A stretch of DNA of 32,599 nucleotides from an uncultured Clostridia bacterium (GTDB lineage: Bacteria > Bacillota > Clostridia > Christensenellales > Aristaeellaceae). The notes beneath the pieces were generated by a model, which was not told where the DNA came from, did not search any database, and was given only the letters and a program-made list of their open reading frames with translations. Below, piece after piece: positions 7,246 to 25,419 of this stretch. The stretch covers positions 1-32,599 of the forward strand of contig CAMENN010000024.1 in assembly GCA_945928315.1 (NCBI GenBank). The letters are read 5' to 3'. The first letter of the stretch is position 1; every line of letters begins with the position of its first letter. Position numbers and translations under genes: made by a program.

Positions 7246-10200
7246 TTATGGATCAACGCGCTTGATATTCACCACGCGATCCGCGCCGTCAAACACGGTG
7301 ATGCGGAAGTAGGAGCTGCCCAGTCCGCAGACGTTCAGCGTGCCGTTGCCGTCGATGCTCAGCCGCTCGTGCGCAGGCAGCGTGCGGGGCATCGCAACCG
7401 TTCCGGCCGCATTGTCCGCCGCATACACGTCGGAGACGATGCGGAAGCCGTCGACGTTCGCCGTCGTGATCACCGGAGCGCCAACGCCGCCCGTCAGCTT
7501 CACGACGATGCGCCGTCCGGCCAGGCCCTTGTCAAACAGGTTCGTCTGCTCCGACACGTTCTTCGCCGCGGAGGTGAACGCCAGCGTGTAGCCCTCGGCG
7601 CCGAAGTCGCGGTCCTTCGCGACGCTCTGCGCTTCGTCCTCGCCGGTCTTCACCCAGACCTCGTAGGCCAGCGTGTTCTCCTCGCCACCCTCGAAGCGCA
7701 GGTTCAGGCTGGTCAGCTTGTAGTCCGCGCCGAGGTCGATTTCCATCCAGTCGCCCCAGGAGGCGCCGGTCCAGGCGGTCGTCTCGTCGAGGTCGAACGC
7801 AGAAGCCGCATTCTCGCCACCGGAGACCGTCACCACGCTGTTTGCCGCGATGTCCGCATCCACAACCGTGTAGACCGAGGTGGTCACGCCGTCCTCCGCG
7901 GTCACGCGGATCTGCATGCCCGGCATCACGATCACGTCCTCCGCGACGGGGTTGCCCGCCGCGTCGAGCAGCGCGTAGGTCTGGTTGTAGTCGCCGTAGA
8001 TCGCGCCCATCAGCTCCGAAGCCGGGATCGCATCCCAGACGCGGACGGTGTGGTTGTCGTTTCGTGCGATCACGTTGTCAAGGCCGATGTTCAGCTTGGT
8101 CGTGTAGACGAAGTCGGACGTGGTCAGCGCCTTGCCCTCCTCTGTCCAGGCGACGAAGCGCAGCACGCGCTCGGTGGAGCGCTGCAGCTGCCAGCGCTGC
8201 AGCTTGCCGCTGGCCAGCGCCGCGCGCAGCACGTTCGGCTGACCGTCGCCCCACGGCGCCTTCAGGTCGTTGCCGCCGATGATCTCGTCATCGTGCTGGG
8301 AACCGCTGAGCATATCGCCGAGGAAGTCCGTGCCGATGAAGCCGCTAAAGCCCCACTCGTTGCGGGTGATCTCCGTCAGCAGGTCATGGCTGGACATGCA
8401 GGGCTGGCCGTTGATCTTGTTGTACGCGGACATGAGGGAGACCTCCGCGCCATTCTTGATCGCGATCTCGAAGCCCTTGAGGTAGATTTCGCGCAGCGCG
8501 CGCTCGGACACCTGACTGTCGCCGCCGCCGCGTCCCGTCTCCTGATTGTTGAGCGCGAAGTGCTTGTACTGCGCGCCGAAGCCCACGCTCGCCGTGCCGT
8601 TCGCCAGGCACGCGGCCGTCCAGCCGGCGATCAGCGGGTCCTCGGAGTAGTACTCGAAGTTGCGTCCGCAGAGCGGATCGCGGTGCAGGTTCATGCTCGG
8701 CGCCTGCCACATGCTCATGTCGAAGCGGCGCGCCTCCAGGCCCATCGCCTGACCGACGGCCTCGAGCAGCTCCTTATTCCACGTGGACGCCTGCATGGTG
8801 CCGCACGGGAAGAACGTGGCGTTCATGTCCGGATCGTCCGGATTGCCGTTGTTGAACTGAATGCCCGCCGCGCCGTTGGTGGAGGCCACCATCGGCTCGC
8901 CGTAGATTTCAAGACCCGCGTAGCCGCTGCGGTGTCCCTTGTCCGGTTCCGGCACCGTGCCGCCCACCAGCGTGAACAGCTCGTCGTCCGTCAGGCGGGA
9001 AACGAAGGTGATCAGCAGGTCGTCGTTCCCCTGCGCCATCGCCTCCATGACCTCCGGGAAGGTGATGAACGGGTCGTCGGAGGCCGGCGGGTTGGCGTAG
9101 ATTTCCTCCGCCGCTTCCGGCGTAGCCGCCGCGTTCACGGTCTGGCGAAGCGGCTGCAGCGTGCCGTTCGAGGTCAGGCGGGCGGGAAGATTCTTTACAT
9201 CGGGCACGAGCTGATGGCTCAGCTGCTCGACCTCTTCCAGCGCGGCGAGCGTGTAGGTGCCCGCCAGCGCGTTGCTGCGCACGGAGTTGCCGACATAGAA
9301 GGCGTACTCGCCCGCCTCCAGCACGTAGGCCGCCTCATGCTCCTCACCCGTCGCGCCGAGGTCGTCGTAGGACGCCATGTCGTCGAACGGGAAGGTGATG
9401 GTCACATCCTGCGAGCCGCCGGGAGCGATTTCGCCGGTCTTGGCATAGCCAACCAGCTCGCGGGCGGGCTGGGTCAGCGCGCCCTCCGGCACGCTGCAAT
9501 ACACCTGCACGACCTCCTTGCCCGCGTAGCGGTCGCTTTCGTTGCGGACGGTCGCGCGGACGGTGACCTCGCGGTCGCGTCCCTCGCCGGTGACCTCGGC
9601 GCTCACGTTCTCCATGACGAAGTCCGCGTAGGACAGGCCGAAGCCGAACTCGTACGCCACCTGATCCTGCACGCCGGGGAGCGTCTCGAAGTAGCGGTAG
9701 CCCACGAAGATGTCCTCAACGTACTTCGCGCTGCCCTTCTGCGCGAAGGTGCCGTAGGCAACGCTCGGGTAATCCTTGTGCGCATACGCCCACGTGTCCA
9801 CCGTCTTGCCGGAGGGATACGCGTTGCCCAGCAGCACGTCCGCCATGGCGTCGCCACCCTCCATACCCGGCAGGGAGACGCACAGCGCGGCGCTAATCGC
9901 CGGGTCATCCTTGATCCAGCCGGTCTCGATGACGTACGGCACGTTCAGGATGACGACGATCTTCTTGAAGCCCGCCGCTTTGATCTGCTCGACGAGCTGC
10001 TTTTCCACGTCGCTGAGCTGGAAGTTGCCCGGCGCGTCCTGATAATCCGAGCCCTCGGAGGACATGCGCGCGAGCGTCAGGATCGCGGTATCGGCCGCCG
10101 CAGCCGCCGCGGCGACGTCCTCGTCCGTCAGCGGCATCTCGCCGACGTCGTTGAGCACCTTGCCCTGGCTGCTGTCCATCATCAGGAAGCCGTTGACACT

Positions 10201-15480: not shown

Positions 15481-15616
15481 GTGTTTTGTTCATGCATTTG
15501 CAAACAATCCATGCAGGACTGCAATGCATCCCGGACACGGAGAGGCTTGCAGCCGGCATTATACCGGCAGGAAAGGAATGCTCCGAATCCGGCAAAGGGC
15601 AGAGCTGATCGGCATT

Positions 15617-16059
15617 CACTCAATTTCCACAATGCCGTCCTCCTTCACGGTAACGGTCATGCCGTCCTGCACATAGCGCAGGAACTCCTCGCCGAGACAG
15701 TCGATCACCGGCATCCGGCTGCCCTCCAGCCACACGTCCTGCAGGATGGCTCCGGCCGCCGCCAGCGAGTCGATCGGCTCGGAAAAGAGCATGCAGGCCG
15801 GCTGACGGTGCATGGAGCAGGCGCAGTAGAGCACCAGCCCGCCCGTGGTGGAACCGATGGTGCGCGGCAGGCAAAGCGCCTTCCCGGCCATGGGCTTGCC
15901 GTAGAGATCAGGATTGTTCTGGTCGCCGCAGGTCGCCTTCTTGTCGCCGAACTGCAGCGCCTTCTGGAAGGATGCCAGCGTGTTCAGCCCGCCATGGCTG
16001 ACCAGCGCCGGCGCGCTGACGGTGCCCTTCGCGACCACCCGTCCTGTGAATTGCCTCAT
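15617..16059 (-). CDS. Aconitase X small (swivel) subunit, DUF126 type
   Basis: This 147-residue protein is the swivelling domain that completes the active site of two-subunit aconitase X enzymes. It opens MRQFTGRVVAKGTVSAPALV, the usual DUF126 beginning, and has the serine-containing loop TIGSTTGGLVLY where the family has a GSSSGS-type segment. Its start overlaps the stop of the large-subunit gene by ATGA, so the two are coupled. Bacterial members include cis-3-hydroxy-L-proline dehydratases. The substrate here is not fixed by sequence. Confidence 0.88.
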
Positions 16060-17333
16060 GCCCGGTCGCCTCCCTTCGTGATCTGCGTGAGAATTTCATC
16101 GTCGGTGTAGTAGCGCGCGCTGGTATAGGTGCGCAGCTTGTTGCTGGAGGTAATGACGGGCATCCGCTCGCTGAGCGGGTTGTTCATGTACATCAGCGGG
16201 CAGATGTAGGAGACGATGACGCCGGTCTTCCTGAGGCGCTCGGCATAGGGCGTTGCATTGAATCGCTCAATGACCGCGGGCGCGGCGGTGAACACCGTGG
16301 GGATGACCACCCGGCTGTTTCCGGCCTCCTTCAGCCCCTGCTCGATGCGCTCCGTCCATTCCGTCAGCTGATGCAGGCTCATGTGCGGGCAGCCCATGAA
16401 GCAGAGCTTCGGCTTCGCCTCCCGTTTCTTCCAGATGACGGGGTAGGAATTGTAGACCCGCTCAAGCTCCGCGTCGTCGATCACATAGACCTGCGCATCC
16501 GGCAGAATCAGCGACTCGCCCTGTGCAACAGCCTCGGGCGTAATGCCCGCCACGTGATACAGGCCCACCGCGCCGTTGGAGGCCGCCGCCGCGCCCATGT
16601 CCTTGAGGTACGCCCGGGCGTCCTCGTCAAGTGTGCCCAGCCACCGGTCCAGGCCGCGGATGTAGGGCACGTCCTCCATGACCTTCATGCCGATGGCGGA
16701 GCCGAGCAGCTGCGCCTCCGGCTTCTTCGTGGTGCGGATGTCGACGATCCATTTCGCCCTGCGTCCCTCGTCAGTCAGCAGGCCGAAGCGCGGCACGAAG
16801 CCGCAGATCGCGCCCATCAGGTCGATGATGCCGGAGTTGCGGTTGCACCGCGCCGCCAGCACCGAATTGGCATAGACGACAGCGGAGGACTCCGACCAGG
16901 AGAGCACATCGCCCGGCTTCGGCGTGTTGCCCACCTCCTCCATATAGCAGGTGCAGGTGAAGGCGTCCCTGTCCATCAGGCCGAGCTTTTGGAGCTGCCC
17001 CTCGTAGAAATCCTGCCTGCTGTACATGAAGTGCTTAAAGATGACGTCCTGCAGAAAGCTGCTGGGCACGTTTTTGTCCAGCGGTCTGGGATCGGCGGAG
17101 AACTTCACGCCGGAGACGGCCCCCTCGGCGATGAGCCTGTCCATCAGATCATAGACCGGGGTCAGCGCCTTGAGCCCGAAGGAAGTCACCAGATGGTTGT
17201 ACTTGCCCGTCACGGGAATCATCGCATCGGCATGGTAGAGCTCGCCGTAGCGCACCAGCGTCTCCATGACCTTCGCCATCGTCTCGCCCCGGCTGCCCGC
17301 CAGAATGTTCTGCTGCTCCTGTGTCAGCTGCAT
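16056..17333 (-). CDS. Aconitase X large (catalytic) subunit, DUF521 type
   Basis: This 425-residue subunit is a hydro-lyase that removes water from a hydroxy acid and carries an iron-sulfur cluster in characterised relatives. Candidate cysteine ligands are Cys127 and Cys129 (FTCTCYMEEVGN), Cys163 (AARCNRNSG) and those in CFMGCPHMS and YICPLM. The stretch WSESSAVVYANSVL is characteristic of the family. I chose ATG 17333, with ribosome site GAGAGGAGG, over an earlier in-frame ATG that would overlap the upstream gene. It lies 13 bases after the 2-enoate reductase gene. Known functions are cis-3-hydroxyproline dehydratase in bacteria and a mevalonate-pathway dehydratase in archaea; the neighbours suggest that a 2-enoate is produced here. 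Confidence 0.9.
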   Translation of the reverse strand: MQLTQEQQNILAGSRGETMAKVMETLVRYGELYHADAMIPVTGKYNHLVTSFGLKALTPVYDLMDRLIAEGAVSGVKFSADPRPLDKNVPSSFLQDVIFKHFMYSRQDFYEGQLQKLGLMDRDAFTCTCYMEEVGNTPKPGDVLSWSESSAVVYANSVLAARCNRNSGIIDLMGAICGFVPRFGLLTDEGRRAKWIVDIRTTKKPEAQLLGSAIGMKVMEDVPYIRGLDRWLGTLDEDARAYLKDMGAAAASNGAVGLYHVAGITPEAVAQGESLILPDAQVYVIDDAELERVYNSYPVIWKKREAKPKLCFMGCPHMSLHQLTEWTERIEQGLKEAGNSRVVIPTVFTAAPAVIERFNATPYAERLRKTGVIVSYICPLMYMNNPLSERMPVITSSNKLRTYTSARYYTDDEILTQITKGGDRA

Positions 17334-17346
17334 CGTATTCCTCCTC

Positions 17347-19401
17347 TCACTTGATCGCCATGGCGACCTCATAGGCCCGCCAGATGACGCTTCTCAGATT
17401 GCCCACCTTCCGGCAGTCGCCCACCAGATGCACCCGGCCGCCCTCCTTCGCGATGGGCGCAGGCAGGTACCCGGCGGAGCTGATCACGCTGTCGCAGGGC
17501 AGCTCGACGATGCCCACCGGTCCCTCGCAGACGATGCTGCCGTCCTTCACTTCCTTGAGCCGGGTGGTCAGATACACCGGCACCTCGTGCAGCGCGAACC
17601 ATTCCCGCAGATAGGAGCTGTTGGCCAGACACACGCCCTTCTGCGCGATGAGGTCGTCCTTCATCTCGACGATGGTGACCTCTTTTCCCGTAAGTGCCAG
17701 CTCGTAGGCGATTTCGCAGCCGGTCAGCCCGCCGCCGACGACCGCCACGCGCTGCCCGACCGGCGTGCCGGTCAGGAAGTCGCACGCATCGATCATCCGC
17801 TCATGGCCCGGCACATTTTTTAGCACCCGGGGCACGGAGCCGGTCGCGACGATCACCTGCTGCCCGTCAAAGGCGGACAGCTCGGTGATTTCCTTGCCGA
17901 AATGCACCTCCACGTTCAGCTGCTCCATCTGGCGGATATACCACGAAAGCAGCTCGCGGAGCTTGCCCTTGTAGCTCTCCGCGCTGGCGGCGATGAAGGT
18001 GCCGCCCAGCCGGTCGCTTCTCTCATAGATGACCGGCCTGTGCCCGCGCAGCGCCAGCACCCGCGCCGCCTCCATGCCGCCGATGCCGCCTCCGATGATG
18101 GCGACGGTCTGCGGGCGCGCCGTCTTCCTGATGTAGTGCTTGCTTCGCTGCATGGTTTCGGCGTTGACCGCGCAGCGGGCCAGATGCAGGGAATCCATCA
18201 GGTCCTGATCGTTGGGCACGCCCTTGTAGTGGCACATGTTGAAGCAGCCGTTGTGGCAGAGGATGCAGGGGCGGATGTCCTCCCGCCTGTCCTCCATCAG
18301 CTTCGTCACCCACGCCGGATCGGCGAGGAAGGGGCGCGCAAAGCCCGCGCCGTCCAGCTCGCCCGCGGCGATGGCCTCCGCCGCGGCCTCCGGCGTCAGC
18401 CGCCCGGCGCAGACGACGGGAATGTCCACGAAGCGGCTGATGTGGCGCACGTCCGCAAGGTTGCAATTCTCCGGCATGTAGATCGGCGGATGCGCCCAGT
18501 ACCACGCGTCGTAGGTGCCGTTGTCGCAGTTCAGCATGTCGTAGCCCGCGTCCTGCAGGAGCCTTGCGGCAAGCTCGGATTCCGCCATGTCGCGCCCGAC
18601 CTCGGTGTAGCTTTCGCCGGGAAGCGCGCCCTGCCGCAGCCCCTTGGTCCTGGAGACGACGCTGTAGCGCAGCGACACGGGGAAATCCTGCCCGCAGGCG
18701 GCCTTGATGGCCTGCACGATCTCCGCCGCGAAGCGGTAGCGGTTCTCCAGTGAGCCGCCGTACTCGTCGGTGCGGTGGTTCACATATTTGAGCGTGAACT
18801 GGTCGAGCAGATAGCCCTCGTGCACCGCGTGCACCTCCACGCCGTCCACGCCCGCAGCCTTCAGCAGCGCGGCGCTTTGGGCGAACGCGTCGATGATCTC
18901 CTGAATCTCCGCCTTCGTCATCTCGCGGGAGGGCACTTTGTCGGACCAGCGGTTTTCCGCCGGGCTGGCGGAGGCGGTGATCCTGTCCAGGTCCATAAAG
19001 GGCTTCGAAAGCACGCGCAGCGCCGGGTTGGTGTACAGCGTCTCCATCATGCTGCTGACGGTGAAGGAGCGCCCGAAGCCCGCCGTCAGCTGCACGAACA
19101 GCTTCGCGCCGGTCTTGTGGAATTCCGGTATCCAGCGCGCCAACTCGTCAAACATCCGCGTGTTCCTGTGCAGCCACTGGCCGAGCATGGGGTTGTACAC
19201 CGGCTGGCAGCCCGGCAGCACCAGACCGGCGTTGTTTTTCGCCACCTCCATCAGGAAGTCCGCGCCTGCACGGTCGAAGTGGTTCACCTCCATCCAGCCG
19301 AACAGATCTGTTCCGCCCATCGAGGTCATGACAATGCGGTTCTTGATCTCGACCTTTCCGATTTTCCACGGGGTAAACAGCGGCTTCAGCCTTTCATCCA
19401 T
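17347..19401 (-). CDS. 2-enoate reductase-like flavoenzyme (Old Yellow Enzyme / 2,4-dienoyl-CoA reductase family)
   Basis: This 684-residue cytoplasmic flavoprotein would reduce an activated C=C bond with NAD(P)H. It has three parts: an FMN-binding TIM barrel (about 1-370), an iron-sulfur cysteine cluster in CILCHNGCFNMC with a further Cys in ARCAVN, and a C-terminal FAD/NAD(P) domain with VAIIGGGIGGMEAARVL and VAVVGGGLTGCEIAYEL. The segments VHAVHEGYLLDQF, NHRTDEYGGSLENRYRFA and YDAWYWAHPPIY resemble clostridial 2-enoate reductases more than fatty-acid 2,4-dienoyl-CoA reductases. I chose ATG 19401, with GGAGGAAAAGCG upstream. It lies 35 bases after the hydrolase and 13 before aconitase X. 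Bile-acid BaiCD/BaiH-type activity cannot be excluded. Confidence 0.88.
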   Translation of the reverse strand: MDERLKPLFTPWKIGKVEIKNRIVMTSMGGTDLFGWMEVNHFDRAGADFLMEVAKNNAGLVLPGCQPVYNPMLGQWLHRNTRMFDELARWIPEFHKTGAKLFVQLTAGFGRSFTVSSMMETLYTNPALRVLSKPFMDLDRITASASPAENRWSDKVPSREMTKAEIQEIIDAFAQSAALLKAAGVDGVEVHAVHEGYLLDQFTLKYVNHRTDEYGGSLENRYRFAAEIVQAIKAACGQDFPVSLRYSVVSRTKGLRQGALPGESYTEVGRDMAESELAARLLQDAGYDMLNCDNGTYDAWYWAHPPIYMPENCNLADVRHISRFVDIPVVCAGRLTPEAAAEAIAAGELDGAGFARPFLADPAWVTKLMEDRREDIRPCILCHNGCFNMCHYKGVPNDQDLMDSLHLARCAVNAETMQRSKHYIRKTARPQTVAIIGGGIGGMEAARVLALRGHRPVIYERSDRLGGTFIAASAESYKGKLRELLSWYIRQMEQLNVEVHFGKEITELSAFDGQQVIVATGSVPRVLKNVPGHERMIDACDFLTGTPVGQRVAVVGGGLTGCEIAYELALTGKEVTIVEMKDDLIAQKGVCLANSSYLREWFALHEVPVYLTTRLKEVKDGSIVCEGPVGIVELPCDSVISSAGYLPAPIAKEGGRVHLVGDCRKVGNLRSVIWRAYEVAMAIK

Positions 19402-19436
19402 CGCTTTTCCTCCATCCTGCGTTCTATTTCTGCGGG

Positions 19437-20627
19437 TCACAGCGCAAACGTGAACCACGCCTCGGGATCATCATAATTCTCATTGGGCACCCAGTCAACG
19501 GTTTTGTTGGTCAGATTGTAGACGGCGCTGTGGATGGTCAGGTGCTCGCCGGAATTGTGGTTCCAGCTTCTTCTGCCCACAGAGGCCAGCACATCCATGG
19601 CCGCGCGCTCACCCTGCAGCACGCCGCCCGCGGCCATGAGCTGACCTTCGATGTGGCGGTAGCGGTCAAGGCCCTTCTGATCCTCCTCGCTGGCATAGTA
19701 GCCCGGCTGAATGACGAAGTTGGTCACCCACTGGGTGTCACTGGCGCCCTCATTTTCGCCAATCTGCGCGTCCTGATCGCTCACGGTGATCACCAGCTGG
19801 CGGGCGGAACCGTCCGTATCGGCGGCGTCCGTACCAGCCACCCATTCAAAGATCGCGCTGCGCCCGCTGGCGTCCGCCACCATGTAGTGGTAGGAGGTCC
19901 CGGCAGAGTCGTGCATGTCGTAGGCCTTGGCAATCTCCACCGCCTCATCCAGGTCGTCGGCGTAATCGAGCACCAGGCGCAGGAAGGTCGTCGTCGTCAT
20001 GTCGGGCCTGTCCGTCTGCTGGTCGGTCGCGACCACGTTTCCCTCGGGGCCCTGATAGGTCATGTACACACCGCAGGCGACGCCCGCGTCGTTCATGCCG
20101 TCCAGCGGCGCATAGACCGCCGCCAGGCAGGTGATTTTGTCAATCAGGCCCTCGACGTCGGCATCCGCGTCCATGCCGAGCAGCCCCAGATCCGCCGTGG
20201 AGATCGTCGCGTGGCGGCCGTTTCCGCCCTCCGTGCGCACGATGCAGGTGTTGGTCTTTTTCATATCGTAGTTGCGGGCGAAGAGCGCGTCCCCGTCCGC
20301 GGTCCGCGCCGTGAAGGAGGAGCAGCCGATCTCCGGGTTGTCGATATGCACGGGGATCAGGCCTTTGGTGATATGATCCACCACAAAGGAGATGAGCTCG
20401 GAATCGTTTGACACGCCGCCCTGCGCGATGAAATCCTCCAGATAGAAGCCGCCCTTGACGTTCAGCGCATACACCGCTCCGTCCATATGCGCGTCGTTGC
20501 GGTCGCGGATTTTCTGGAAGCTGGCGACGGAGGCCAGCTCGTTGTGCCAGAGGACAAGGATGCCTGCCGCCGCTGCTGCGAGCAGCAGGACGAGGATAAG
20601 CGCGATGACTTTGACGGTTTTCTTCAT
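19437..20627 (-). CDS. Membrane-anchored or exported linear-amide C-N hydrolase (Ntn type, C45/C59-like)
   Basis: This 396-residue protein probably cleaves an amide bond in a small acylated substrate. A hydrophobic segment at residues 6-27 (VIALILVLLLAAAAAGILVL) is a signal anchor, placing the catalytic part outside the membrane. The presumed nucleophile is Cys102 in IGCSSFTAR, followed by the family motif FARNYD (about 116-121) and DGMNDAGVACGVYM. Acyl-CoA:6-aminopenicillanate acyltransferases and bile salt hydrolases share this fold. In this subfamily the Cys lies well inside the precursor, so processing at 101/102 would be needed for an N-terminal nucleophile; I cannot see whether it happens. 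The ribosome site is AAAGGAAGC. Two TetR-type operators lie immediately upstream. Confidence 0.8.
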   Translation of the reverse strand: MKKTVKVIALILVLLLAAAAAGILVLWHNELASVASFQKIRDRNDAHMDGAVYALNVKGGFYLEDFIAQGGVSNDSELISFVVDHITKGLIPVHIDNPEIGCSSFTARTADGDALFARNYDMKKTNTCIVRTEGGNGRHATISTADLGLLGMDADADVEGLIDKITCLAAVYAPLDGMNDAGVACGVYMTYQGPEGNVVATDQQTDRPDMTTTTFLRLVLDYADDLDEAVEIAKAYDMHDSAGTSYHYMVADASGRSAIFEWVAGTDAADTDGSARQLVITVSDQDAQIGENEGASDTQWVTNFVIQPGYYASEEDQKGLDRYRHIEGQLMAAGGVLQGERAAMDVLASVGRRSWNHNSGEHLTIHSAVYNLTNKTVDWVPNENYDDPEAWFTFAL

Positions 20628-20652
20628 GATGAGCTTCCTTTCTTTTTCAATC

Positions 20653-20672
20653 TCAGCACATGGTGTGCTGTA
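20653..20672. promoter_or_regulatory. TetR operator copy 1, upstream of the hydrolase gene
   Basis: TCAGCACATGGTGTGCTGTA is a 20-bp palindrome matching two other copies at 20718 and 21358. It lies 26 bases before the hydrolase start codon. Confidence 0.75.
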
Positions 20673-20717
20673 TGGTGTTTGCAGGGGAAATGCTTCTTCC
20701 GGATGCGATGCCGTCTG

Positions 20718-20737
20718 TCAGCACACTGTATGCTGAA
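20718..20737. promoter_or_regulatory. TetR operator copy 2, between tetR and the hydrolase gene
   Basis: TCAGCACACTGTATGCTGAA matches the shared palindrome TCAGCACAcnGTGTGCTGA with one arm change. The centre is 65 bases from copy 1. No clear -35/-10 pair was recognised in this 132-base gap, but two operators imply a regulated promoter here. Confidence 0.75.
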
Positions 20738-20747
20738 CGTGCATGGG

Positions 20748-20775
20748 AAAAGGGAATCCTCACGCCCGGATTCCC
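20748..20775 (-). terminator. Terminator at the end of the tetR gene
   Basis: GGGAATCC (20752-20759) pairs with GGATTCCC (20768-20775) around an 8-base loop and is followed on the minus strand by TTTT. It overlaps the last codons of tetR, so tetR and the hydrolase operon are probably separate transcripts under one regulator. Confidence 0.7.
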
Positions 20776-21338
20776 TTGAGGAATATGCCGAAGCCGTAGT
20801 CAAACCGGCGAAGCGCTTCTTCCTTGCTGAGGTTTCTGGCCATCGCGTCGGCGTTGAAGCCCCGGATGAAGCACCAGATGGCGTAGCTCAGGCTGTCTGC
20901 GTCCAGTTCGGGCGCGACCTGCCCTTCCCGCTGCCCGGCAGCGATGAGCTTCTTGATCTCCGCCGTCCACCAGCGGAAATTCTCCTCCGAGGTCGAGTCG
21001 CTTTCAAAGACAAACTGGCTGAGGTTCTCCTTGCAGTCGTAGGAGGCAATCACGGTCTGTGCCGCCACCTGCCGGACATGGGTGAAGAAGTCCGTCCCCT
21101 CTGGCCGGGGGAGCGTGAGGCTCCTGCGCACCTCGCGGATCATCTTCTGGTAGACCAGCTCCAGCACCTCGTCGATATTGTGGAAGCGGTTGTAGAAGAC
21201 GCGGTTGGTGATGTCCATCTCCCGGAGCACGTCGCGCACGGTGAGCTTCTGCGTATGCTTCTGCCTGGCCAGCCGCTCGGCGCAGGAAAGGATTTCCTCG
21301 GAGACCTCATCCCAGATTAAGGGCTGTTCGGATGCCAC
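20760..21338 (-). CDS. TetR/AcrR-family regulator of the hydrolase, enoate reductase and aconitase X operon
   Basis: This 192-residue repressor starts at GTG 21338, preceded by GGAGGGGAGAGG. The N-terminal DNA-binding domain contains LTVRDVLREMDITNRVFYNR followed by FHNIDEVLELVYQKM, the usual TetR helix-turn-helix with the aromatic FYNRF turn. The C-terminal ligand domain ends with DYGFGIFLKGIRA and is not close to any specific effector class I know. Three copies of one palindrome lie only around this gene and the next operon, so autoregulation and control of that operon are strongly suggested. The inducer is probably the pathway substrate. Confidence 0.88.
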   Translation of the reverse strand: MASEQPLIWDEVSEEILSCAERLARQKHTQKLTVRDVLREMDITNRVFYNRFHNIDEVLELVYQKMIREVRRSLTLPRPEGTDFFTHVRQVAAQTVIASYDCKENLSQFVFESDSTSEENFRWWTAEIKKLIAAGQREGQVAPELDADSLSYAIWCFIRGFNADAMARNLSKEEALRRFDYGFGIFLKGIRA

Positions 21339-21357
21339 CCTCTCCCCTCCCCTCCGC

Positions 21358-21377
21358 TGAGCACACAGTGTGCTGAC
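21358..21377. promoter_or_regulatory. TetR operator copy 3, in the tetR leader
   Basis: TGAGCACACAGTGTGCTGAC is the most symmetric of the three copies (core AGCACAC-A-GTGTGCT). It lies between the tetR transcription start and its GTG start codon, indicating autoregulation. Confidence 0.78.
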
Positions 21378-21415
21378 CGATGCTTCCGCTCTGCTGATGC
21401 AGAGCGGTCAAAAGC

Positions 21416-21443
21416 ATCATATCATATTTTTCCTGTTTGTCAA
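21416..21443 (-). promoter_or_regulatory. Promoter of tetR
   Basis: On the minus strand a perfect TTGACA (21438-21443) and TATGAT (21416-21421) are separated by 16 bases. Transcription would start near 21409, upstream of operator copy 3. Confidence 0.78.
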
Positions 21444-21510: not shown

Positions 21511-23250
21511 CTATCCCTTCCTCTTTCGTTCTGCCACCCGGTTGAAAACCAGCAGCGCGGTCGTCGTCAGCAGCACGGCCATCGCCATGCCGAGCGAAAC
21601 GCTGCCCTGCTCAAATTCCCGGTTGATGTAGGTGGACACGACGAGCGTATTGGGCGGCGCAATCAGGCTGGCCGTCACCAGCTCGCGGAAAGCGATGATG
21701 AAGATCATCATCCAGCCCGCGAGGATGCCGCGGGCAATCATCGGCAGTGTGATTCTGAAAAACACATAGGCGGGCGATCCGCCGAATACGCGCCCCGCCT
21801 GCAGGAGGCTGTCGCTGATCTGCGTGAACGCGGAGGTGACATACTGCACGGTGTAGGGCAGGTACAGCACGACATAGGCCAGCACCATGATGCCCAGCGT
21901 GTTGTACAGCGGAATCACCCTATAAATCGCGTTGTAGAAGAGCATGATGCCGATGACCAGCACGATGCCCGGCAGCATCTCCGGCAGCAGGCTGATGCCT
22001 TCAATCGCCTTCTTGAGGAAGCCCCTCGCCCGCCGCGCGGCGACGACGGCGGCCGTGCCCAGCACGGAGCAAAGCGTGGCCGAGGAGGCCGCCAGAAACA
22101 GTCTGTTGCCGATGGCGGAAAGGGCCCTGGGCGTCGCCAGCAGATCCCTGTAGTGCTCGAGCATGAAGTTCCCCGCGGCAAGACCGTAGCCGCGCAGCCG
22201 GATGAGCGAGGTGGCGATGATGGAGAAGTACGGCACGCCGATGGCGACGAGCACCACCAGCGCAATCCATGCCCACGCGAGTGCAAGGCCGGCGGGAGAA
22301 AGGATCGTCCGTGCGGGGTGGGTGCCCTTGCCGGTGATGAGGCTGTAGCTCGTGCGCGCGGTGATGTGGTTTTGCAGGAGCCACATGACCATGCAGATGC
22401 AGATGAGGATGGAGGAAGGACTGGCCGAGCGCCCGAAGCCGATTGGCGACGTTGTGGAATAGCGGTGGATGTCCGTGGTGAACACGTCAAAGCCGATGCG
22501 CCGCCCCAGCGTGTACGGCGTGCCATACTCCGAAAGCGTCTTGACGAAGACGAGCAGCGCGCCGATAGCATAGTTGCCGGTCAGCAGCGGGGCCAGGATC
22601 CTGCACAGCCGCCGTCCCGGACGCGCGCCGAAGACCGCGCCGCTCTCCTCGAGGCTGGCGGGGATGCTCAGCATGGCGTTTTTCAGCATGGTCATGAGGA
22701 ACGGAAAGACGTGCAGGCTCATGACCAGCACCAAATCGCCGAAGCAGAAGAATCCCTCCGACCATCTGCCCGTGAACGGGAAAAGCTGCTGGAACAGACC
22801 GCGCTTATGCATGAACAGAATCCAGCCCATCGAGGCGATGTACGGCGGCGTCATGAAGGGAATCATGAACACGATGTCAAGCCATTTGTGGCGGGCGAGC
22901 TGCGTGCGGGCGAGCAGGAACGCCGTCGGCAGCGCGATCACGCTGGAGAGCAGCACGACGCACAGGCCAAGCAGGAGCGAATTGAGGATGGTGCTCACGT
23001 TCCGGGCATCGGCTATCGTCGCAAGAGCCCGATACAGGTCAAGGCGGCCATCCGTGATGACCGCCCTGGCAAATACCTCCACGCCGTACGTCCGTTCCAG
23101 CTCGAGAATGCCCTGCGCGTTTTCCTCCGTCCACGCCTTCGGTTCCCAGGAGCACAGCTGGCAGCTGTCAAAGCCGAGCCTTTGCAGCCTTTCAAAGCGC
23201 TTCCGCACCTCCGGGAGCGACGTGAAGTTAACGAGCGTTCCGATTCTCAT
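21511..23250 (-). CDS. Chimeric two-domain ABC permease (FbpB-like) with an isomerase-derived N-terminus
   Basis: The 579-residue product has two unequal origins. Residues 1-59 (MRIGTLVNFTSLPEVRKRF, then GFDSCQLCSW, then TEENAQGILELERTYGVEV) look like the start of a sugar-phosphate isomerase/epimerase TIM barrel and keep that gene's ribosome site (GAGGAGGCGCATC). From about residue 60 (FARAVITDGRLDL) the protein becomes an iron/polyamine-type permease with two permease domains: ILNSLLLGLCVVLLSS onward, a first EAA-like loop at EESGAVFGARPGRRLCRI and a second at LQAGRVFGGSPAYVFFRI. The usual first membrane helix of such permeases is missing. No ATPase or binding-protein gene is adjacent. It may be non-functional despite an intact frame. 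The frame extends upstream to 23406, but only 23250 has a ribosome site. Confidence 0.75.
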   Translation of the reverse strand: MRIGTLVNFTSLPEVRKRFERLQRLGFDSCQLCSWEPKAWTEENAQGILELERTYGVEVFARAVITDGRLDLYRALATIADARNVSTILNSLLLGLCVVLLSSVIALPTAFLLARTQLARHKWLDIVFMIPFMTPPYIASMGWILFMHKRGLFQQLFPFTGRWSEGFFCFGDLVLVMSLHVFPFLMTMLKNAMLSIPASLEESGAVFGARPGRRLCRILAPLLTGNYAIGALLVFVKTLSEYGTPYTLGRRIGFDVFTTDIHRYSTTSPIGFGRSASPSSILICICMVMWLLQNHITARTSYSLITGKGTHPARTILSPAGLALAWAWIALVVLVAIGVPYFSIIATSLIRLRGYGLAAGNFMLEHYRDLLATPRALSAIGNRLFLAASSATLCSVLGTAAVVAARRARGFLKKAIEGISLLPEMLPGIVLVIGIMLFYNAIYRVIPLYNTLGIMVLAYVVLYLPYTVQYVTSAFTQISDSLLQAGRVFGGSPAYVFFRITLPMIARGILAGWMMIFIIAFRELVTASLIAPPNTLVVSTYINREFEQGSVSLGMAMAVLLTTTALLVFNRVAERKRKG

Positions 23251-23316
23251 GATGCGCCTCCTCATATGCCTTATTTCTCCGGCGCACAGCAAGCCCGCCG
23301 GGTTTTTGCCGATTTC

Positions 23317-23322
23317 ATTATA
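23317..23322 (-). promoter_or_regulatory. Possible -10 box upstream of the chimeric permease gene
   Basis: A perfect TATAAT on the minus strand lies 67 bases upstream of the start codon. The matching -35 (TTACTT at 17 bases) is weak, so this is tentative. Confidence 0.4.
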
Positions 23323-23374
23323 CGACAGAATGCGCGCAAAAGTAATCGCGCAGGCGTGCGCTACCGTGCAGTCA

Positions 23375-23398
23375 TGTGCACAAAATCGTGATTGCACA
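23375..23398. promoter_or_regulatory. Inverted repeat in the divergent gap, possible operator
   Basis: TGTGCA (23375-23380) and TGCACA (23393-23398) are perfect inverted arms around a 12-base AT-rich spacer. The site lies between the chimeric permease and the exported flavoprotein and could be a regulator site for the latter. No nearby regulator can be assigned to it. Confidence 0.35.
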
Positions 23399-23505
23399 AC
23401 ACACAAATCTTCACTGACTTTTTGCAGTTTATGGAGGAATTCTCCCTTCTTTCACGAATAATGCCATCAAAAGCCGGGCGCAGTCCCGGTATAAGGAGGA
23501 ATACC

Positions 23506-25419
23506 ATGAGGAAATGGACTACCCTGCTTCTGGCACTGCTGCTGACCGTCATCATGTCGGCGGCAGCCTGCGCGCAGATCGCTCTGCCGGACGGCACTTA
23601 TGCCGGTGAGGGCAGCGGCTTCAACCTGACGGTGATGATTCCCGTCGAGGTTGAAATCAAGGACGGCGCCATCGCGGCCGTGACCATCGGGGAAAATGGG
23701 GAGACGATGGGCATGATCGCCACGGCGAAGGACGTCTATCTTCCGCGGGTCATTGAGACCCAGAGCCTGTCCGTAGATGCGGTGACCGGCGCGACGCTCT
23801 CCTGCGTCGGCGTGCGGCTGGGCATCGCGGACGCGCTGCAGAAGGCCGGCGCGGACGTCTCCGCGCTGTACGTGGCGATTCCCAAAAAGGACGCCGAGGA
23901 AACCTATGACACGGATGTGCTCGTCGTCGGCATGGGCTCCTCCGGCACGACCGCCGCACTGGCAGCCGCCGAGGCGGGCGTGCGCGTGCTGGCCATCGAC
24001 AAGGCCGGCAAGTGGGGCGGAACCGGCGCAACCACCTCCGGCCCGTGCAGCGTGAACGCGCCGAGCCAGGTTGCCGCGGAAATCGCCGAGTGGAAGGACC
24101 CCATCAACGGCGTGCGGACCAAGCCCGCCGGCGAGCAGCTGGTTGACGCCGAGGCGCTCTTCGCCGAGTGGACCGGCTACACGACCGTCGACGGCGTGCA
24201 GGGCGCCAAGCCGGAGATCATCCGCAAGGTCATTGACGAGAGCGGCGAAACCTGCGACTGGCTGCAGAGCTACGGCTTCCAGTTCAACCCGGCGGTCGGC
24301 TTTGTCGGCGGCAAGTGGGCGATCTTCTCGTCCTACACCGGCAACAAGCAGCTCACCGAGAGCTTCTTCGCCTCCGCATATGACCGCTTCACGCAGATGG
24401 GCGGAGAATACATGCTGGAAACCGAGGCGACCTCGCTCATCATGGACGGCAACCGCGCCGTGGGCGTGCTCGCCCAGAAGGCGGACGGCACAAAGGTCAC
24501 CATCAACGCCAAGGCGGTCATCCTGTGCACGGGCGGCTTTGCCGGCAGCGCACAGATGCAGGAGACCTACTATGGCGAGGCGTACAAGCTCTACGGCATG
24601 TACACCAACGACGGCAAGATGATCAAGTCCGCCATCGACAACGGCGCGGCCACCCGGGCCATCGGCATGTATCCGATGAGCCACTTCGTCGCCCCGACCG
24701 TCATCACACGCGCGTTCTCGCCTGCGGACAACGACATCCCCTACGGCCTCATCTGCACCAGCGAAGCCATGGCCGTCAACCGCAAGGGTGAGCGCTTCAT
24801 CAACGAGAGCGGCATCGCCATGAACGCGTTCTATCAGGGCAACGTGTTCTACACCATCTACTCCAAGGAGCAGATCGACATTCTGCGCGAGCAGGGCCTG
24901 AGCGCGGCGGCCAGCGGCCGTTACCTCAGCCAGGGCGGCGTTGCGGCAGATACCCCGCTGACCAACATCGACGCGGTCATCGAGCTGGGCTGCAAGGGCG
25001 GCTACATCTTCAAGGCCGCCACGCTGGATGAGCTAGCATCTGCCATCGGCGGCGAGATGAGTGCGGAGAACCTCAAGGCCTCCGTTGCGGGCTACAAGCC
25101 CGACGGCGACGCCTTTGGCAAGCCCGCGGAGAAGTTCGCGCGGCTGGGCACAGTGGCACCGGATTCCGAATACTACGTCGCCTTCGCCGGCGCGCCCTAC
25201 ATCTACAGCACCACGGGCGGCCTCGACGTCAACGAGAGCTTCCAGGTGCTCGACACCAACGGCGAGGTCATGCCGGGCCTGTACGCCTGCGGCACCGACT
25301 CCATGGGCGTCCTCTTCCACGAGGACAAGGCTTACACCAACTACGGCGGCTGCGCGCAGGGCTACTGCTTCGTCTCCGGCCGCGACGCCGGCGCCATCGC
25401 TGCGCAGGAAGTCCAGTAA
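23506..25419 (+). CDS. Exported FMN/FAD flavoprotein reductase (fumarate/urocanate reductase family)
   Basis: This 637-residue protein probably reduces an organic electron acceptor outside the cell membrane. ATG 23506 follows AAGGAGGAATACC; the longer frame back to 23392 is unlikely. Residues 1-23 form a signal peptide ending ACA before QIALPDG. Residues about 28-115 are an FMN-binding domain whose motif VDAVTGATLS offers Thr97 for covalent FMN attachment by an ApbE-type flavin transferase, not encoded here. From about residue 137 an FAD-binding reductase domain begins (DVLVVGMGSSGTTAALAAAE), with VILCTGGFAG and the C-terminal GLYACGTDSMGVL. Relatives reduce fumarate, urocanate, cinnamate-like acids and others. 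The C-terminal half does not let me name the acceptor. Confidence 0.88.
   Translation: MRKWTTLLLALLLTVIMSAAACAQIALPDGTYAGEGSGFNLTVMIPVEVEIKDGAIAAVTIGENGETMGMIATAKDVYLPRVIETQSLSVDAVTGATLSCVGVRLGIADALQKAGADVSALYVAIPKKDAEETYDTDVLVVGMGSSGTTAALAAAEAGVRVLAIDKAGKWGGTGATTSGPCSVNAPSQVAAEIAEWKDPINGVRTKPAGEQLVDAEALFAEWTGYTTVDGVQGAKPEIIRKVIDESGETCDWLQSYGFQFNPAVGFVGGKWAIFSSYTGNKQLTESFFASAYDRFTQMGGEYMLETEATSLIMDGNRAVGVLAQKADGTKVTINAKAVILCTGGFAGSAQMQETYYGEAYKLYGMYTNDGKMIKSAIDNGAATRAIGMYPMSHFVAPTVITRAFSPADNDIPYGLICTSEAMAVNRKGERFINESGIAMNAFYQGNVFYTIYSKEQIDILREQGLSAAASGRYLSQGGVAADTPLTNIDAVIELGCKGGYIFKAATLDELASAIGGEMSAENLKASVAGYKPDGDAFGKPAEKFARLGTVAPDSEYYVAFAGAPYIYSTTGGLDVNESFQVLDTNGEVMPGLYACGTDSMGVLFHEDKAYTNYGGCAQGYCFVSGRDAGAIAAQEVQ

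Follow-up and report, generated by a model that had tools for sequence, protein, structure and literature searches.

A conserved pairing of two-subunit aconitase X with an OYE-family flavin reductase, with a possible role in the dehydroxylation of free 3-hydroxy fatty acids

In the genome of an uncultured Clostridia bacterium, a tetR-type gene stands ahead of genes for an amide hydrolase, a flavin reductase and the two subunits of an aconitase X (AcnX), and the question is which of these proteins belong together and on which acid they would act. The stretch analysed (hereafter the window; 32 599 nucleotides, contig CAMENN010000024.1 of assembly GCA_945928315.1) carries all five genes on the minus strand. 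The tetR-type regulator gene (20760..21338, GTG start) is followed by the gene of a C45/choloylglycine-type N-terminal-nucleophile amide hydrolase (19437..20627), by that of an OYE-family Fe-S/FMN/FAD reductase of the BaiCD/bilirubin reductase/2-enoate reductase superfamily (17347..19401) and by those of the AcnX large (16056..17333) and small, or swivel, subunits (15616..16059). The gap between tetR and the hydrolase gene is 132 bp and the next ones are 35, 13 and -4 bp; the gene order, single strand and spacing given in the first-pass annotation were all borne out by the coordinates. Families were assigned with Pfam. The large subunit matched PF04412 at 299.6 bits (cut-off 31.5) and has the conserved catalytic residues; the small subunit matched the swivel domain PF01989 at 44.4 bits (cut-off 27) and has the general-base Ser within a Gly-Ser-Thr-Thr motif. 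The reductase matched PF00724 (178.5 bits, cut-off 27) and Pyr_redox_2 PF07992 (95.1 bits, cut-off 26.1), and the hydrolase matched AAT PF03417 (34.0 bits, cut-off 23.2) and CBAH PF02275 (26.2 bits, cut-off 20.4). The regulator scored 27.5 bits with TetR_C_13 (cut-off 27) and 20.6 with TetR_N (below the cut-off of 24), and its assignment to the TetR family is marginal. The window genome (2.94 Mb, 189 contigs) has a single AcnX, and a full-length AcnX was found in one of the 28 other genomes of the genus that were searched (G013).

The reductase contains the Fe-S cysteine motif and its best solved match is chain 6qkg (164.5 bits). It reached 332.8 of 750 bits with the BilR-long model and 314.9 of 825 with that of BaiCD, so far under both cut-offs that it is placed in a separate subfamily. 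A bile-acid reading, in which a BSH-like amidase would work with a BaiCD-like OYE, was set aside because of this distance from the BaiCD cut-off and because the AcnX residues suit a hydroxyl group adjoining a carboxylate.

The unit that is conserved is smaller than the one first proposed: it consists of the OYE-family Fe-S flavin reductase and the two-subunit AcnX. It was delimited in the best 80 of 582 AcnX loci, taken from named genomes with AcnX identities of 72-88%. An OYE gene lay upstream of AcnX, on the same strand and within 500 bp, in 64 of these 80 loci (median distance 26 bp), a count that takes in partial or split OYE copies (e.g. L041, L051 and L090) and two loci with a second OYE type (L079 and L099). 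Among the others, one had an OYE gene at 658 bp, ten had room for one and lacked it, and five were cut by the contig end. The small subunit gene adjoined that of the large subunit in 79 of the 80. Thirteen genomes of the 15 OYE-less loci were searched, and ten encoded an OYE of at least 50% identity elsewhere; G640 and G642 gave matches of merely 33-34%, and none was found in G641. Thirteen genomes of the order or class searched alongside all had an OYE at 56-61%. The regulated operon uniting an AcnX dehydratase with a flavin reductase was supported; the gene set proved conserved for AcnX and OYE, and the hydrolase failed this test as a member of the operon. A search of openly licensed PMC papers (titles and beginnings of abstracts) found none on an AcnX-flavin reductase pair, which agrees with the earlier statement that the combination is undescribed and is not proof of absence.

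Co-occurrence was then counted in the order to which the window belongs (200 genomes), where AcnX had 28 matches, or 27 once G040 (29% identity) was dropped. An OYE of at least 55% identity was present in 24 of the 27 AcnX-positive genomes vs 17 of the 173 AcnX-negative ones (Fisher p 5e-17, a value that shared ancestry inflates). Of the three exceptions, G539 and G623 had the second OYE type directly beside AcnX, so that an OYE of either type, linked or unlinked, was present in 26 of the 27; none of either type was found in G605. This second subfamily substitutes beside AcnX in several lineages, which requires a minimum of three changes on the tree of AcnX (labels assigned by hand). In a sample of 398 genomes of the phylum, AcnX had 30 matches. 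Six genomes besides that of the window had an AcnX 39-68% identical over nearly its full length and were treated as the same clade; the OYE gene was adjacent in five, in the order OYE-L-S or L-S-OYE, and on the same contig in the sixth (G329). Eight AcnX-positive genomes of one family, 0.9-1.3 Mb in size, all had an OYE, unlinked in seven. The mirror-tree correlation of AcnX and OYE was 0.58 (90 pairs), against 0.29 for the best of 500 permutations; it could stem from shared ancestry. By adjacency and co-occurrence, unlinked cases included, reduction by OYE appears to be functionally coupled to AcnX, and OYE looks like an obligate partner. The exceptions are the genomes named above that lack a close OYE and Rhodococcus opacus PD630, which has no annotated OYE within 15 kb of its AcnX.

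Import had also been proposed as part of the unit, and the neighbourhoods did not uphold it. Gene families within eight genes of AcnX were surveyed at 73 of 83 loci (ten were dropped; families were named by eye): no family outside the core was common, and no transporter-like family other than core members occurred in more than eight of the 73. An alanine-symporter-like protein (8/73) and a GlnQ-like ATPase (7/73) recurred at varying places. A sugar-symporter-like protein, also named by eye, lay within 6 kb of the unlinked OYE gene in eight of 20 regions, five of them syntenic and of the Mogibacterium type.

The amide hydrolase is accessory to this unit. A search with its single sequence gave no match; a profile search retrieved choloylglycine hydrolases and penicillin V acylases, with an E-value of 1.2e-11 to 4wl2. 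The protein has a hydrophobic N-terminal segment, and about 100 residues precede the putative nucleophile Cys102. The PF02275 match starts at this residue (profile position 1 being the nucleophile Cys) and was found in 12 of 12 homologues with an E-value of 0.001 or better; Cys102, Arg118, Asn119, Asp121 and Asn179 are invariant in them. With the C45 model NF040521 the score was 76.8 of 85 bits, under the cut-off. An intact C45 gene accompanied OYE-AcnX in the window and in one locus of the same genus (L022, without a tetR match) only. L026 matches the window at 87-89% identity in OYE and AcnX and has just remnants of the hydrolase gene between tetR and OYE. Relatives were present in eight other genomes of the 200 in the order, and the nearest ones (G621, G601 and G630) are in genomes without an AcnX match. 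This deletion remnant in a close relative and the occurrence elsewhere without AcnX make the hydrolase an accessory. In these three genomes C45 is accompanied by a MarR-type gene, and in two of them by a DegV gene as well. In other genomes C45 is linked to OYE-AcnX by a common MarR operator.

A motif scan placed three palindromes in the window, upstream of tetR (21358..21376), between tetR and the hydrolase gene (20718..20736) and closest to the hydrolase start (20653..20671). The consensus CAGCAYACnRTGTGCTGA, with up to two mismatches, had three sites in the whole window genome, all at this operon, and its reversed control had zero. TetR relatives precede OYE-AcnX in L026, L054 and L090 (71, 49 and 47% identity). 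The palindrome was also present upstream of tetR in L026 and L090, and L026 has a variant of it between tetR and OYE; in L054 none was found in the stretches scanned. A further copy in L090 (at 11772) falls inside the first residues of the AMP-ligase ORF called after AcnX, whose true start is likely to be later than called. The TetR protein of the window would act at the three local predicted operators.

Several relatives appear, from their predicted sites, to place the same genes under a MarR-type regulator. The operator was defined at the MarR-C45 genes of G621, G601 and G630 and at one MarR gene near OYE, that of L066; the palindrome upstream of these genes is TTGTTGAnnnnTCAACAA. With up to two mismatches it had 35 sites in 2.2 Mb of loci, whereas three shuffled half-sites had 6, 14 and 12. 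It lay upstream of OYE in nine of 63 regions; 100 shuffled half-sites averaged 0.08 such regions and never exceeded 1. Among the nine, the sites of L079 and L099 are weaker and lie farther from OYE, and some of the hosts are related. The palindrome precedes MarR-OYE in L053, L071 and L087, and a reductase-like gene before OYE in L048. The exact core was then searched in 30 genomes, many of which had been chosen for the motif at their locus: it had 44 sites in 19 genomes, and the control had none save in G646 (three) and G645 (four). Assigned by eye, 29 of the 44 lay at OYE-AcnX, C45, MarR-DegV, FakA-MarR-DegV, AMP-ligase, DegV, DegV-ALDH or ADH-ALDH-C45 genes, five at Crp/Fnr-like genes, where the sites probably belong to another regulator, and ten elsewhere. 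Thirteen of the 29 were what had led to their genomes, and the 31 other sites divided into 16 at fatty-acid, C45 or MarR-DegV genes, five at Crp/Fnr-like genes and ten elsewhere (also by eye). In G950 and G945, the site stands before FakA-MarR-DegV, the C45 set and the OYE-AcnX set alike.

The proteins of this candidate regulon were scored against known families. The putative FakA kinase matched PF13684 (FakA-like_C) at 263.7 and 239.4 bits (cut-off 23); that of L275 reached 600 bits with YloV (cut-off 396.1) and 506.3 of 975 with the FakA_VfrB equivalog, under the cut-off. The DegV protein matched PF02645 (231.7 bits) and scored 117.3 of 350 with FakB1, under the cut-off. The putative MarR-type protein of L275 had no Pfam match at 1e-10; it matched MarR/SlyA proteins of the PDB with an E-value of 3.7e-8. 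AMP-ligases of the MarR regulon share 55-65% identity with the one found at the L090 TetR site, and by this likeness the two regulators seem to share targets. In enterococci, FabT (MarR family), FakA and FakB handle exogenous fatty acids (PMC9083066 and PMC12594616).

As a MarR operator is shared with fatty-acid genes, 3-hydroxy fatty acids come first among the candidate substrates. This fatty-acid link is new in the present analysis and was absent from the earlier annotation. We infer for the operon two reactions, in this direction. In the first, AcnX would remove water from a free 3-hydroxy acid and so form a 2-enoic acid; in the second, the OYE flavoenzyme would use NAD(P)H to saturate this acid, neither CoA nor ACP being involved. 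The substrate would most likely be an environmental 3-hydroxy fatty acid, which, in genomes that have it, the membrane-anchored C45 amidase would cleave off amino lipids or N-acyl amides. The saturated product would enter membrane lipids by way of FakA with a DegV/FakB-like carrier or by way of an acyl ligase, under the control of MarR in several relatives and of TetR at its three operators in the window. The role of enoate reduction as an electron sink, proposed earlier, is possible. These components differ in strength. That AcnX and OYE form a dehydration-reduction module is highly probable. A fatty-acid setting for the module is favoured by a little, and may extend from the relatives to the window. 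That AcnX acts on 3-hydroxy fatty acids is a tentative assignment, and the whole chain from dehydration-reduction of these acids to lipid reuse, which is the best overall explanation, is held with somewhat less than even confidence. More tentative still is a CoA/ACP-independent salvage in gut Firmicutes, in which AcnX and the enoate reductase would remove the 3-hydroxyl of free 3-hydroxy fatty acids derived from other bacteria's lipid A, amino lipids and N-acyl amides, with C45 as supplier and FakA/FakB-like kinases as receivers. In that salvage the AcnX-positive gut Firmicutes with genomes of 0.9-1.3 Mb, likely fatty-acid auxotrophs, would be included. PMC12803199 reports 3-hydroxy N-acyl amides in gut bacteria, which was counted for the fatty-acid reading. 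Counted against the fatty-acid reading are the window genome itself, with zero exact MarR core sites and no MarR operator at the operon, and a fabF loss that does not separate AcnX carriers from other genomes. As a discriminator, fabF loss was rejected (25 of 27 AcnX carriers vs 30 of 35 others, in 62 hand-picked genomes of the order, with over-cut-off matches alone taken as presence of fabF). Also counted against the reading are L054, where a TetR gene comes with no palindrome in the stretches scanned, the 15 of the 31 sites above that lie at Crp/Fnr-like genes or elsewhere, the AcnX of R. opacus, and the AcnX-positive genomes in which OYE was absent (G605 and G641) or matched at only 33-34% (G640 and G642).

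The AcnX pocket bears on the substrate from another side. The clade was aligned with the T. kodakarensis (Tk) AcnX (7CNR) and with type I enzymes from plasmids; residue roles were those assigned in PMC8184944. The three cysteines of the [4Fe-4S] cluster, which the window protein probably binds, are kept, together with the general-base Ser and with the Glu and Ser that hold the 3-hydroxyl and the carboxylate. The C-terminal-side Lys and Tyr are also kept; they were matched through the type I rows, as the Tk sequence used stops at residue 342. Most landmarks of the two known substrates, cis-3-hydroxyproline (see below) and phosphomevalonate, are missing: for the latter, the phosphate loop residues differ and the Tk Asn79 position is an invariant Asp. 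These missing landmarks agree with the description, in PMC8184944, of types IIc-IIf as uncharacterised and without substrate landmarks; PMC10040528 likewise has several two-subunit subclasses without assigned function. The substrate of the same two-step module could also be a short-chain, aryl or amino-containing beta-hydroxy acid of small size, the fatty-acid link being indirect and the reduction maybe an electron sink. Known AcnX substrates are small (PMC8184944), which counts against a fatty acid. So does the invariant Asp (Asn in phosphomevalonate dehydratase), which a lipid tail leaves unexplained and which could hold a cationic or polar group. The pair is also kept in very small genomes, and AcnX of Rhodococcus opacus PD630 (47% identity, no annotated OYE within 15 kb) has a 3-carboxyethylcatechol dioxygenase gene set at a distance of about 5 kb. 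Plasmid records matching AcnX numbered 160, all below 60% identity; among the 40 of 160 listed, only those of R. opacus reach 47% and the other 38 are below 30%. An Actinomycetota sample searched for Rhodococcus-like contexts gave one match in 296 genomes, a Collinsella. Against a small acid stands the operator common to FakA, DegV, acyl ligase and amidase genes in the relatives, and this alternative is less probable than the fatty-acid reading and the most probable of its rivals.

The surroundings of R. opacus AcnX and of L160 point to aromatic acids or proline. In L160 a proline racemase gene (541 of 556 bits, near the cut-off) adjoins AcnX, and ornithine cyclodeaminase-like and ProX-like genes, named by eye, are nearby. 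AcnX might dehydrate a 3-hydroxyproline, and OYE reduce the product to proline. The C3LHyp dehydratases are AcnX proteins (PMC5144071 and PMC8184944), and the equivalent of Thr72 is retained in the small subunit. In the clade, Val, Leu and Phe take the places of At Asp203, Trp35 and Ile206, the score with the equivalog NF051439 (141.1 of 700 bits) is under the cut-off, and the supporting gene context is confined to L160. Reduction of an enamine acid by an OYE would be unusual, which also counts against this improbable route. Identity of the window AcnX with hydroxyproline dehydratase was set aside on these absent landmarks, and the route survives as a low rival. Identity with phosphomevalonate dehydratase was rejected, as the phosphate loop and Asn79 are absent.

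Equally improbable is that the module works in a fatty-acid setting on other acids or in the other direction, for example by hydrating or detoxifying unsaturated acids. The regulon evidence suits it as well as it does the dehydration of 3-hydroxy fatty acids, and aconitase-type reactions are reversible (PMC10040528); the conserved residues for the carboxylate and the 3-hydroxyl favour chemistry adjoining the carboxyl group. That AcnX and OYE lack any functional link and travel together by chance or common descent is very improbable, given two gene orders, co-occurrence even when unlinked and the second OYE subfamily beside AcnX (at least three changes), even with counts inflated by shared ancestry and with a few AcnX-positive genomes in which no OYE was found.

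If the AcnX-OYE route on 3-hydroxy fatty acids is true, a thioester-free dehydroxylation would be added to bacterial lipid metabolism, gut Firmicutes could use the 3-hydroxy lipids of Gram-negative neighbours, and the retention of the pair in very small genomes would be accounted for. One AcnX clade gains an obligate-looking partner, two regulators with defined predicted sites and a testable substrate class.

Each component resembles a known system in part. The closest solved match of the AcnX large subunit is phosphomevalonate dehydratase (type IIb, archaea; 7CNR/7CNS; E 2.8e-41): both have two subunits, three [4Fe-4S] cysteines, the Glu, the Ser and the general-base Ser, whereas its phosphate loop and Asn79 are not kept in the window protein, which is paired with a reductase where the archaeal phosphomevalonate route uses a decarboxylase (PMC8184944). 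The type I cis-3-hydroxyproline dehydratase has the fold, the catalytic Glu, Ser, Lys and Tyr and the Thr72 equivalent in common with the window AcnX; its Asp203, Trp35 and Ile206 are replaced, and the window protein has the [4Fe-4S] cysteine pattern and not that of type I. Choloylglycine hydrolase, penicillin V acylase and C45 amidases are alike in the nucleophile Cys and the Arg/Asn/Asp pattern; the window hydrolase differs from them in its hydrophobic N-terminal segment and in the roughly 100 residues that precede the Cys. The FMN barrel, Fe-S cysteines and FAD/NAD domain are common to the window OYE and the BaiCD, bilirubin reductase and 2-enoate reductase group. Finally, the relatives share with the FabT-FakAB system for exogenous fatty acids palindromic sites and DegV genes, together with a putative MarR-type gene and a candidate FakA gene; unlike in that system, the candidate MarR site also stands before OYE-AcnX, C45, ADH-ALDH and acyl-ligase genes, and the window operon uses a TetR-type regulator.

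Gene order varied at the loci carrying aconitase X (AcnX). At four Mogibacterium-type loci (L089, L095, L100 and L091), a C69-type dipeptidase gene was found immediately 5' of AcnX, in the position that the flavin reductase (OYE) gene occupies at other loci, and OYE was sited elsewhere, away from AcnX. The C69 model scored 585.9 bits in L089, over the curated cut-off of 250. At two other loci (L048 and L074), a 2-dehydropantoate 2-reductase-like gene preceded OYE within the operon; in L048, the MarR operator, a palindrome first defined mainly upstream of the MarR-C45 genes of relatives, was located upstream of this gene. In L090, the OYE gene beside AcnX (7888-9967) was split into two pieces in different frames, either because the gene is broken or through an error in sequencing.

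The MarR core motif also adjoined Crp/Fnr-like genes at L264, L265, L268, L269 and L273, three of which carried a divergent ferredoxin-like gene (both gene types named by eye). At these genes, the motif is probably a similar site of another regulator. In L263 (1066-2091), a MarR-type gene with the operator was followed by a gene judged aldolase-like by eye, which had no NCBIfam match at 1e-30.

Near tetR in the window, the first ~60 residues of the ABC permease ORF (21511-23406, - strand) resembled the start of a sugar-phosphate-isomerase-like protein, a name assigned by eye (38% over 58 aa against the one in L263). The ORF thus has the look of a fusion of two genes, or of a chimera left by a deletion. 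A flavoprotein gene with FMN- and FAD-binding domains (23392-25419, + strand) was located 2 kb from tetR. Its vinyl phenol reductase-like product scored under the cut-off of that model (158.6 of 600 bits) and is a possible second enoate-type reductase.

Among 62 genomes hand-picked from the window's order, fabF scored over the cut-off in only 7. The usual route of fatty-acid synthesis therefore seems to be unavailable to most of the order as sampled.

Finally, a different AcnX type (30%) was found in L163 (genome G245), adjoining aldehyde ferredoxin oxidoreductase-like and UbiX-like genes (both named by eye). The surroundings of this bacterial AcnX gene recall the archaeal mevalonate route.
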